NCBI GenBank assembly: GCA_902386555.1
Contig: CABMJJ010000011.1
Span: forward strand, 1-64,000
Reading direction: 5' to 3'
From: Candidatus Bilamarchaeum dharawalense
GTDB lineage: Archaea; Micrarchaeota; Micrarchaeia; Anstonellales; Bilamarchaeaceae
Length of the DNA: 64,000 nucleotides
Made by a program: the position numbers and the translations under genes. This document shows, piece by piece, positions 6,697 through 61,133 of this stretch. Positions within the stretch are counted from its first letter, which is position 1; each line of letters opens with the position of its first letter. The notes under the pieces were generated by a model. The model did not search any database, had not been told where the DNA came from, and saw only the letters and a program-made list of their open reading frames with translations.

Positions 6697-7653
6697 ATGA
6701 CAATAATAACAACCAAAACCAAACCAATTCCTAGGATTGAGGGGGAGATAATTAGACGGAGTCCCAGCCTACGAACTGCAAGAAAAATCCGAGGTTTTGA
6801 TAGTTTAGTGGAAAATAACATGGTTGGAGAATTTTTAAAAAATTCAGGACAATTTGTAATATTGCCGAAAGGAGCACGACTAATGAAAGCAATTTGCACC
6901 TTACTTGATAGATGTATTAGAAAACCATTGGGTTTCGAAGAAGTGTTTTTGCCAAAAATTGCTCCTGTTGATAGTTTTAGAAAAGCAGGGATTCTTGGTA
7001 AATGGGATGGCTATCTTATAGCTGCCATACCTTTCTCCGATACTCATGGCGTTACCGAAGAATATCTTCTGGATCCACTTCAATGTACTACATTCTACCA
7101 ATTTCATGAAAACAAAGTCATTGATACCAGCATGGGACCAGTGAAATGGTTTGATAGCTCAGGACCAACCTATAGAAATGAAGATTCTGACAGGATTGTT
7201 CCACTTGTGAAACAACGAGAATTTCACAGAGCAGAATTTGTTTATATGGGAACTCGAGCTCATGTCATTCAAATTAGAGAAGAATGTCTTGCCAGATTGG
7301 AAAGAATGTGTAGGGATCTGGGACTAGGATATCGCATTGTTGTTGGCAGTGGGTGCTATCAACTGGAATCTGGCAAATCAGAGATGCCACAAACAGTAGA
7401 AGAGATCCCAATCAAAGACCTGGAAATCCATTGTCCTGGTTATGAAAACGGAGGATCATTTTTGGAAGTTGCAGGTAGTGCAGTGCTTGGAACGATTATA
7501 ACATCAAGATTCAAAATCAGAGACCAGAATGGAAATGAGTTATGGAGCGGCTGCACCGGGATTGGCCTTGAGAGATTGATGTTTGCCGTGCTTACGAACT
7601 ATGGCGTAGATTTCGATAATCTCCCAGTTACGGTTCAGGAGGCGATGGCATGA
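6697..7653 (+). CDS. Stand-alone SerRS-like class II ligase (amino acid:carrier-protein-ligase-like)
   Basis: Class II aminoacyl-tRNA-synthetase catalytic core without a tRNA-binding arm, 318 aa. Motif 2 reads REFHRAEF (residues 174-181) and motif 3 reads GCTGIGLERL (285-294). C130 (in 'PLQCTTFY'), E180 and C286 sit where the three zinc ligands lie in the atypical methanogen SerRS and in the amino acid:[carrier protein] ligases. The length fits the latter group, which load glycine or alanine onto a carrier protein instead of tRNA. The substrate here is unknown and no carrier-protein gene is seen nearby. Its stop overlaps the start of the radical SAM gene by four bases. The start is placed by a TATA box ~25-30 bases upstream. 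It could instead be a degenerate tRNA synthetase. Confidence 0.75.
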   Translation: MTIITTKTKPIPRIEGEIIRRSPSLRTARKIRGFDSLVENNMVGEFLKNSGQFVILPKGARLMKAICTLLDRCIRKPLGFEEVFLPKIAPVDSFRKAGILGKWDGYLIAAIPFSDTHGVTEEYLLDPLQCTTFYQFHENKVIDTSMGPVKWFDSSGPTYRNEDSDRIVPLVKQREFHRAEFVYMGTRAHVIQIREECLARLERMCRDLGLGYRIVVGSGCYQLESGKSEMPQTVEEIPIKDLEIHCPGYENGGSFLEVAGSAVLGTIITSRFKIRDQNGNELWSGCTGIGLERLMFAVLTNYGVDFDNLPVTVQEAMA

Positions 7654-8354
7654 GCGCAAATATGGTGTATAAATTTGCGACCCCATACGATCCAAAGGCA
7701 ACTGTTTTGTATGTGAATATAGTGCCACGTTATTTCTGTACGAACTCCTGCAGATTTTGCAGCAGAAAAGATGCAATTCAAGGAAGACCGAATATCTATG
7801 AAAAGAAAGCCGGAACGAATTTGTGGCTACCCAAAGCGCCAATGTTTGAAGACGTAGTACGCGAATTAGAAGTAAGAAGAACAGTGGAAACAACTGAAAT
7901 CGCGTTTGTTGGATTGGGCGAACCTCTTTTGCAATTTGAACTCGTAAGAAACATAATCACTAGGATAGGGACGGATGGATTTCATGGTAAGGTAAGGATA
8001 GATACCAATGGCTTGGTCAAATGTTGGCGTAAAAATGATCCTGCGCAGGAATTACAAAAAGCTGGCTTGGATGAAATAAGAATATCTGTTAATGCAGTGG
8101 GCAGTGATGAATACACTTCAATTTCTAGACCAAAACAAAGAGATGCATTCGAAAAATTATGTGAATTCGTAAGAGATTGCATCAAAAATGGCATAGATAC
8201 CTACCTAAGTTTTGTGGTTGGCTTTGATGATGGAGAAGTAAAAACAAGAACAGCAGAAGAGTATCAAAAATTTGCCAGAATCCTTGGTGTTCAAGAAAAA
8301 AATGTTATAATTAGACAGTACGTTCCACCGTTAGAACAAAATCTCCGGAGTTAA
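7650..8354 (+). CDS. Radical SAM protein, TatD-associated-like
   Basis: The 4Fe-4S motif is CTNSCRFC (C-x3-C-x2-C) near residue 30. 'FVGLGEPLL' matches the GGEP-type SAM-binding strand, 'RIDTNGL' is the second SAM-binding strand, and 'EIRISVNAVGSDEY' follows. The order and wording resemble the small TatD-associated radical SAM family. The reaction is unknown. At 234 aa it is a minimal radical SAM core without extra iron-sulfur domains. The start overlaps the stop of the SerRS-like gene (ATGA at 7650), implying translational coupling and a shared pathway. Its last 24 bases overlap, tail to tail, the gene on the opposite strand. Confidence 0.85.
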   Translation: MSANMVYKFATPYDPKATVLYVNIVPRYFCTNSCRFCSRKDAIQGRPNIYEKKAGTNLWLPKAPMFEDVVRELEVRRTVETTEIAFVGLGEPLLQFELVRNIITRIGTDGFHGKVRIDTNGLVKCWRKNDPAQELQKAGLDEIRISVNAVGSDEYTSISRPKQRDAFEKLCEFVRDCIKNGIDTYLSFVVGFDDGEVKTRTAEEYQKFARILGVQEKNVIIRQYVPPLEQNLRS

Positions 8355-9339: not shown

Positions 9340-9466
9340 TGGGCCCGCGCGGAATCGAACCGCGAATCTCCCGCGCTCTCAAAACTTTTTATAGACAGTT
9401 TTTGATGAAACTTTTTCCTAAAAAGTTTCTGTGAGGCGGACGTCTTAACCATTCGACTACGAGCCC
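9340..9466 (-). tRNA. tRNA-Val(CAC) with a canonical intron
   Basis: Acceptor GGGCTCG (9466-9460) pairs with CGGGCCC (9347-9341); discriminator A is 9340. The D stem GTC/GAC, anticodon stem TCCGC/GCGGG and T stem CGCGG/CCGCG are all intact. The anticodon CAC is at 9433-9431. The intron sits after A37, at the usual archaeal 37/38 site. The junction folds as a textbook bulge-helix-bulge: a 4-bp helix CUCA/UGAG flanked by the 3-base bulges CA^G and AG^C, with cuts after the second base of each. Mature length is 73 bases. Confidence 0.93.
9376..9429 (-). other. 54-nt intron of tRNA-Val
   Basis: The 5' arm (AAACTTTTTA) pairs with the distal arm TAAAAAGTTT to build the inner helix of the splicing motif. 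The same arm can instead close a perfect local 10-bp hairpin (arm GAAACTTTTT on the plus strand, loop CCT, 9407-9429). The intron therefore has two mutually exclusive folds, only one of which presents the splice sites properly. Confidence 0.85.
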
Positions 9467-9662: not shown

Positions 9663-9853
9663 AGCCCCGTCGTCTAGTTTACCTTTTAGGAAAAGGTAAA
9701 GCCAAAACGGTTTGATTAAATTCGCTTCGCGAATTTTTCACGAGGTGAAAAATCAACAGCCGATTTTTGCGCCTCTTTTTCCTAAAAAGAGGCAACGGTC
9801 AAGGATAGTGGACTTTGGATCCATTGACACCGGTTCGAATCCGGTCGGGGCTA
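9663..9853 (+). tRNA. tRNA-Gln(TTG) interrupted in the D-loop
   Basis: Acceptor AGCCCCG (9663-9669) pairs perfectly with CGGGGCT (9846-9852), and discriminator A is 9853. Anticodon stem GTGGA/TCCAT closes loop CTTTGGA with anticodon TTG at 9815-9817. The T arm is ACCGG/CCGGT with loop TTCGAAT. The D stem GTCT (9672-9675) pairs with GGAT (9803-9806). Between A14-G15 and G18-G19 of the D-loop lie about 116 extra bases. Removing them gives an ordinary 75-nt tRNA-Gln. There is no intron at the canonical 37/38 site. Confidence 0.9.
9680..9795 (+). other. ~116-nt D-loop intron of tRNA-Gln, ends approximate
   Basis: The insertion is almost fully structured. Perfect hairpins lie at 9678-9700 (arm TTTACCTTTT, loop AGG), 9718-9736 (AAATTCGC, loop TTC), 9734-9752 (TTTTTCAC, loop GAG) and 9771-9793 (GCCTCTTTTT, loop CCT). 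The two middle hairpins overlap at 9734-9736 and so compete; both are enclosed by a longer imperfect stem (CGGTTTGATT at 9708 with AATCAA...CCG at 9751-9762). I could not find a clear bulge-helix-bulge at the ends, so the exact splice sites are unresolved. No homing endonuclease motif is encoded. Confidence 0.75.
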
Positions 9854-60910: not shown

Positions 60911-60945
60911 GTTTTCACTTTTTAGAAAAAACGCTGAGGGCAGGA

Positions 60946-61004
60946 TTGTCAGTACCATTTTAGCACGCCCGTTTTTGGGCGTACCTTTTTACTAAAAAGG
61001 TACA
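60946..61004 (-). other. 59-nt T-loop intron of tRNA-Ser
   Basis: A bulge-helix-bulge can be drawn: outer helix GCAGG/CCTGC (the T stem), central TTCA/TGAC (three of four pairs), 3-base bulges AA^T on both sides, inner helix GTACC/GGTAC. Cutting after the second bulge base joins TTCAAA to TCCTGC exactly, i.e. between positions 59 and 60. The intron also contains a perfect 10-bp hairpin (arm GTACCTTTTT on the plus strand, loop ACT, 60981-61003), which competes for GTACC, and a second stem ACGCCC/GGGCGT. Confidence 0.82.
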
Positions 61005-61058
61005 TTTGAACCTGCGATCCCGAAGGGACCGGTTTTCAAGACCGGCGCACTACCAGGT

Positions 61059-61092
61059 TTCGCGCCTTGCGCGAATATAACGTTCAAGGCTT
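61059..61092 (-). other. ~34-nt D-loop intron of tRNA-Ser
   Basis: The inner helix GCCTTG/CAAGGC and central helix TCGC/GCGA can form around bulges ATAAA and AA, a relaxed splicing motif. Flanking AAA repeats leave the exact ends ambiguous by up to two bases. A perfect 7-bp hairpin (TTCGCGC on the plus strand, loop CTT, 61059-61075) occupies half the intron and excludes the inner helix. Confidence 0.72.
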
Positions 61093-61133
61093 TATGCGAC
61101 CTCAGCACGAACGAAGTGAGTTATGAGGGCTGG

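Follow-up and report, generated by a model that had tools for sequence, protein, structure and literature searches.

Non-canonical BHB introns of archaeal tRNA genes, as described for Crenarchaeota, Thaumarchaeota and ARMAN/Micrarchaeota, are spliced by proteins, occupy the D-, anticodon and T-loop, can occur several per gene and are cut by endonucleases of broad specificity (PMC6379350, PMC12397907, PMC4033280). Similar introns in different tRNAs are attributed to the Thermoproteales (2010 work, cited in PMC4033280 and PMC4090602). Two further systems bear a partial likeness to the locus studied here: the disruption of tRNA genes by a mobile element in Caldiarchaeum, where tRNA fragments lie beside the interrupted tRNA (PMC3293823), as a fragment-like 5' piece does here before tRNA-Arg, and the hairpin-forming repeats dispersed through the compact genome of sponge mitochondria (PMC2800124). 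Our subject is a tRNA-Gln(UUG) gene whose D-loop holds a 118-nt insertion, which by its sequence is very probably an archaeal tRNA-splicing-endonuclease intron at the non-canonical position 15/16, its hairpins being repeat cassettes at the intron ends. If spliced in this way, it would share the properties named above with the known BHB introns. Unlike in those accounts, position 15/16 is used here by nine tRNAs of one genome under one rule (a comparison at the level of the class), and the introns are long (median 53 nt, n = 32) with a hairpin cassette at their ends. In contrast to what is cited for the Thermoproteales, the whole introns are not alike; common to them is a hairpin unit whose stems change but stay paired and which stands in either orientation and at either intron end. 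Unlike the Caldiarchaeum case, no recombinase-coding element is seen at this locus and the unit is non-coding and about 23-118 nt long, and unlike the sponge repeats the hairpins are tied to tRNA introns and splice sites.

The window, that is the whole 64,000-nt stretch of DNA that was analysed, comes from an archaeal genome assembly of 1.27 Mb in 11 contigs that is 88% complete. ARAGORN calls no tRNA in the window as it stands, and the Rfam tRNA model matches only the 3' part of the gene, with 28.9 bits, slightly below the cut-off of 29. Once the insertion is removed, ARAGORN calls tRNA-Gln(ttg) at 9663-9853 with all stems intact, as a sequence-only reading of this DNA had proposed. In its 3' half the gene shares 84-96% identity with those Gln tRNAs of relatives that match it best. 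Rfam scans at the locus gave no credible RNA family besides tRNA. No other tRNA-Gln(UUG) was found among the own-genome matches in the 11 contigs, the sole other tRNA-Gln being an uninterrupted Gln(CUG) on contig C9. The boundaries of the insertion were set from uninterrupted relatives together with the NNNN-AA^ rule described below. In relatives, a Gln gene without interruption has the sequence GTCTAG-Y-GGTCAAGG (GTCTAG^YGGTCAAGG), whereas here GTCTAG and CGGTCAAGG are spaced by 118 nt, so that the insertion corresponds to 9678-9795. The parts of the gene are as follows.

9663-9677, plus strand: 5' exon, called in the spliced form by ARAGORN, with the acceptor strand, positions 8-9, the D-stem strand GUCU (9672-9675), A14 and G15
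9678-9795, plus strand: putative intron at D-loop position 15/16, 118 nt, boundaries AG^U ... AA^C
9678-9700, plus strand: terminal hairpin 1, TTTACCTTTT/AAAAGGTAAA, 10 bp
9701-9770, plus strand: inner part, from sequence and fold, with tail GCCAAAACGGTTTGATT, two overlapping hairpins and mirrored tail AATCAACAGCCGATTTTTGC
9771-9793, plus strand: terminal hairpin 2, GCCTCTTTTT/AAAAAGAGGC, 10 bp
9790-9793, plus strand: AGGC, which can pair with GUCU (9672-9675) as the 4-bp central helix of a splice motif
9796-9853, plus strand: 3' exon, from the sequence and from ARAGORN on the spliced form

Terminal hairpin 1 is the left end of a repeat; it begins at the 5' splice site and is followed by GCCAAAACGG (9701-9710). 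Terminal hairpin 2, the right repeat end in inverted orientation, stops 2 nt short of the 3' splice site and includes the AGGC, and the hairpin ends and tails of the intron together form an inverted repeat. Between them lie the hairpin AAATTCG/CGAATTT (9718-9736) and, overlapping it, TTTTTCAC/GTGAAAAA, both enclosed by an outer stem, so that the four perfect hairpins of the sequence-only reading, two of them overlapping within an outer stem, are indeed present. The whole gene folds with -75.2 kcal/mol, as against a shuffle mean of -48.15 (z = -6.18), and 0 of 200 shuffles fold as low. The insertion had been put at about 116 nt, which the comparison with uninterrupted relatives corrects to 118 nt; it had also been called long for an archaeal intron, and long it is, but inside the range of 11-129 nt given in PMC4090602.

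The same position is interrupted in related genomes, the comparison that the sequence-only reading had proposed. We count 18 distinct tRNA-Gln introns at 15/16 in two phyla, Micrarchaeota and Aenigmatarchaeota, with lengths of 14-118 nt, the window's being the longest; the count unites the loci of a scan of named genomes with those of further relatives, two spurious parses (145 and 75 nt) having been removed beforehand. The named-genome scan, for which AAYGGYCAAGGATAG served as 3' border, found 14 loci: eight in Micrarchaeota or genomes named only 'archaeon' and six in Aenigmatarchaeota. Within the same order, a strict pattern for the interrupted gene matches at least 8 of 84 genomes and one for the uninterrupted gene at least 12 of 84, the former being a lower bound since such patterns overlook interrupted genes that BLAST finds (G011, G014, G024). 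Some introns at this site in relatives are short (14-19 nt) and free of hairpins, which suggests that the hairpins were placed within a pre-existing intron site. The place of the insertion, previously noted as unusual, is only partly so, because D-loop introns are described in archaea (PMC6379350, PMC12397907).

The 3' ends of these introns follow a common rule. In the 18 Gln introns the last two bases are mostly AA, and bases -6 to -3 pair with the D-stem strand GUCU at four of four positions in 14 introns and at three of four in the remaining 4. When offsets from -4 to +2 were tested, full pairing occurred besides at the rule position solely at -4 (4 of 18), and as background only 32 of the 796 4-mers of these introns would pair fully. 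The rule extends to other tRNAs of the genome: introns at 15/16 are found in Gln, Gly-CCC, two Val, Leu-CAG, Thr, Asp, Lys-CTT and Ile, and the four bases fit the D-stem of their own tRNA in 9 of 9 cases but in just 1 of 66 swaps with tRNAs of another D-stem. These nine introns were drawn by hand, the Asp, Lys and Ile junctions, which can slide, being placed by the AA^ rule; left out of this test were the D-arm introns of three tRNAs, Ala(CGC), Ser(UGA) and Glu(UUC), which do not follow the rule at 15/16. Because the four bases track the tRNA's own D-stem, the intron end appears to imitate the 3' D-stem strand, the splice sites falling within bulges AG^U and AA^Y. An inner helix of the motif is additionally present in several relatives, e.g. 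L086 with GCCUUG by the 5' bulge and CAAGGC by the helix. An outer helix on the exon side is not evident in the motif, which would thus be a relaxed one.

In 8 of 11 precursors the forced splice-motif fold lies no more than 0.8 kcal/mol from the minimum. For the window's tRNA-Gln the motif fold costs 5.5 kcal/mol relative to the minimum, and the predicted probability of the central helix is 0.0, because AGGC is tied up in terminal hairpin 2; the motif fold is also disfavoured in Asp (5.1 kcal/mol) and in the relative in L086 (4.0 kcal/mol). Forcing the helix in the window's gene opens the terminal hairpins, which then pair together, and leaves a 5' bulge larger than 3 nt. In these predicted folds the competition between the splice helix and hairpin 2 for AGGC is the main weakness of reading the insertion as an intron. 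It also accounts for the earlier statement that no normal splice motif could be drawn: this is fair for the present copy, in which a hairpin conceals half of the motif, although AGGC and GUCU are complementary at all four positions.

The genome encodes the enzymes that such an intron would need. The endonuclease gene at C3:78853 specifies an EndA of the Micrarchaeota (epsilon) type, with 428.5 bits across 367 residues to the ARMAN-2 enzyme 4fz2, and RtcB is encoded at C7:142043 (E 4.9e-168). In the alignment to 4fz2, judged by eye, the catalytic Y, H and K are all present, as is the lysine that PMC6379350 names for the ARMAN-specific loop, and the ARMAN-type enzyme is described as broad in specificity (PMC6379350, PMC12397907). 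When the drawn introns were removed in silico, 14 of 14 tRNAs of this genome gained the expected anticodon in ARAGORN, as against 0 of 14 unspliced, and the interruptions account for the failure of standard finders to detect most of these tRNAs. Of seven further splicings, two (Val-CAC and Arg) left the anticodon undefined, since the drawn boundary is about one base off. A second splicing-endonuclease homologue of 166 aa is located at L101:476-976 on the minus strand (G000:C11:87817-88059). By eye, and at positions that we take to be those of M. jannaschii, two of its three catalytic residues are replaced, so that it may be a non-catalytic partner; short second homologues of like kind occur in many genomes of the order.

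Hence the earlier suggestion of an intron is well supported by the shared site, the D-stem-tracking 3' end and an encoded endonuclease of the broad-specificity type. The data show intact exons, one site used in common, a pairing rule that runs through introns and tRNAs alike, and genes for both enzymes; cleavage and ligation of this particular intron are what we infer from sequence. In the mechanism that we propose, AGGC of the precursor would form a helix with GUCU, the 5' strand of the D-stem, in imitation of the D-stem itself, and this helix would leave AG^U and AA^C as the bulges that contain the splice sites. The epsilon endonuclease would cut at both sites and RtcB would join the exons, whereupon the freed GUCU could pair with its true partner GGAU. 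The hairpins presumably fold locally and cap the exon-intron boundary; they might stop the exons and a long intron from misfolding together, and bring the two splice sites close to each other. In the window's intron the end hairpins could pair with one another, which would release AGGC for the splice motif.

The hairpins belong to a genus-level repeat family, with a unit of the form N5-TTTT-NNN-AAAA-N5' plus CCAAAAC. A pattern of left hairpin and tail, TTTTANNAAAA-N(2-14)-CCAAAA, which makes no demand on the stem, matches 28 times in the own genome as against 3 times for a reversed control and is present in 16 of 17 genomes of the genus; a slightly stricter form, applied to 83 genomes of the order, matches in 27 of them and is dense solely in this genus and in g2, which belongs to the same family. 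We retrieved and classified 27 of the 28 own copies: 14 lie in introns of splicing-confirmed tRNAs, three in loci that are tRNA-like by eye, three at a tRNA end, two by tRNA fragments and four elsewhere, and one is a false match in a coding region. As a permissive Rfam scan of 16 repeat loci recognised only one tRNA (L064), tRNA context was assessed through in-silico splicing and through BLAST to mature tRNAs. By the latter, in two other members of the genus, regions around repeat matches resemble mature tRNAs in 15 of 20 cases in G014 (regions that cover part of its matches) and in 11 of 17 in G012 (covering all 18 of its matches); among control tiles of the window 3 of 88 do so, each containing a real tRNA. 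For the hairpin we also built a covariance model, which at 21 positions was set aside as too short for specificity.

Although the pattern leaves the stem free, 125 of 135 outer stem cells are paired in the 27 matches, a value that falls to 56% after partner swap. In a covariation test on 26 distinct rows, with the false match included, 95.7% of stem cells were paired versus 76.2% when shuffled, and the covariation score was 0.558 versus 0.165 (0 of 500 shuffles). The 32 introns of the 21 spliced tRNAs contain 19 hairpins, distributed over 15 introns, and all 19 lie no more than 6 nt from a splice site where 5.9 would be expected. Orthologous introns gain, lose and flip the cassette. The Asn intron carries it 3'-terminally here but 5'-terminally, and in opposite orientation, in G012, the Val-GAC cassette has different stem letters in G012, and the D-loop intron of Lys-CTT has a cassette in G014 and none here. 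The notion of a mobile or structured element settled in the tRNA thus holds in so far as the hairpins form a repeat family, which however sits inside an intron site that already existed. One tentative idea is that the unit moves: as a structured cassette it would spread from one Micrarchaeota tRNA intron to another at the RNA-processing boundary, e.g. by mis-ligation of excised RNA and copy-back into DNA, with selection keeping its copies paired; this is possible, though we would not presume it. Such a cassette, if real, would be a hairpin-built equivalent, in archaea, of introner elements. Being a defined repeat that is gained, lost and flipped at orthologous introns, the unit offers a test of how archaeal tRNA introns originate and grow.

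A somewhat less favoured account of the hairpins, which we regard as unlikely yet worth weighing, sees them as bidirectional terminators or DNA-level elements, e.g. ends of non-autonomous transposons, that are merely located in tRNA loci. The unit is near-palindromic, occurs in both orientations with T4-6 runs on both strands and is gained, lost and flipped at orthologous introns, and four of the 27 copies lie away from tRNA genes while three abut tRNA ends. This account, however, sits poorly with the confinement of all intron copies to the vicinity of a splice site and with the compensatory change that keeps stems paired; moreover, a terminator within a tRNA gene would be harmful, no target-site duplication was seen by eye, and an exact-pattern scan of viral contigs found no copy of the repeat. 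A scan of the same kind for the interrupted tRNA-Gln in viral contigs likewise found none.

Two other explanations concern the gene as a whole. It is improbable that the gene is dead, i.e. that a repeat element inserted and is not removed while another tRNA reads the Gln(UUG) codons. The element is repeated elsewhere in the genome, the splice helix is concealed in this copy, and a second tRNA-Gln(UUG) could be missing from an assembly that is 88% complete; against this stand the intact stems, the close similarity of the 3' half to Gln tRNAs of relatives, the lack of another Gln(UUG) among the own-genome matches and the 17 other distinct introns at 15/16 in two phyla, many without such a hairpin. 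Still more improbable is that the insertion stays unexcised and gives the tRNA an extended, folded D-arm. Its predicted minimum fold does preserve the acceptor, anticodon and T arms alongside the hairpins, but the D-stem is absent from it, the 3'-end rule in nine tRNAs with their own D-stems would be left unexplained, and introns of the anticodon and T-loop bear the same hairpins and must be removed. A spliced intron with hairpin cassettes remains the reading that we adopt. Group I and group II introns were discarded, as no such family reached the gathering score in the window, and none appeared at the locus even when E values up to 5 were admitted. Box C/D sRNAs carry the C box RUGAUGA and the D box CUGA, and the tRNA-Trp intron bears one; neither motif is present in the 118-nt intron, and this candidate was likewise rejected.

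Further tRNA genes of the genome are interrupted, two of them in the window.

9340-9466, minus strand: tRNA-Val(CAC), neighbour of tRNA-Gln, whose intron at the canonical position starts with the same kind of hairpin
60932-61106, minus strand: tRNA-Ser(UGA), with a D-loop intron of 34 nt and a T-loop intron of 59 nt

The T-loop intron of tRNA-Ser(UGA) starts with the hairpin type of the tRNA-Gln intron, and its end, UGACAA^U, recurs in one intron of Leu-UAA and in a T-loop intron in L085. The most heavily interrupted gene is tRNA-Ile(UAU) (L057:813-1103, G000:C3), for which in-silico splicing gives four introns, at 15/16, 37/38, 53/54 and 59/60; four removals (86, 41, 56 and 33 nt) are needed before ARAGORN accepts it. 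In this lineage, then, tRNA genes carry interruptions at several sites and one gene has four, compared with the maximum of three introns per archaeal tRNA gene given in PMC8450103 and PMC4033280. In the limited set of literature searched we found no earlier account of splice-site hairpin cassettes or of a four-intron archaeal tRNA; both look new, whereas the intron class is already known.

A different D-arm site is used in tRNA-Glu(UUC) (L052, G000:C3:14305-15114), where a 32-nt insertion lies at about 21/22, directly before the 3' D-stem strand. Repeat copies also occur next to pieces of tRNA: one (L058, around 1000) is flanked by a short duplicated tRNA 5' piece before tRNA-Arg and another (L060, around 800) by a short duplicated piece resembling a tRNA 3' end after tRNA-Gly, and judging by sequence both pieces look as if they were fragments left by insertion. 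Upstream of the window's tRNAs, a gene at 6697-7653 on the plus strand encodes a 318-aa protein with the class II tRNA-synthetase core alone (PF00587) and overlaps a radical SAM gene (PF04055) at 7650-8354 on the same strand, an unusual pair.
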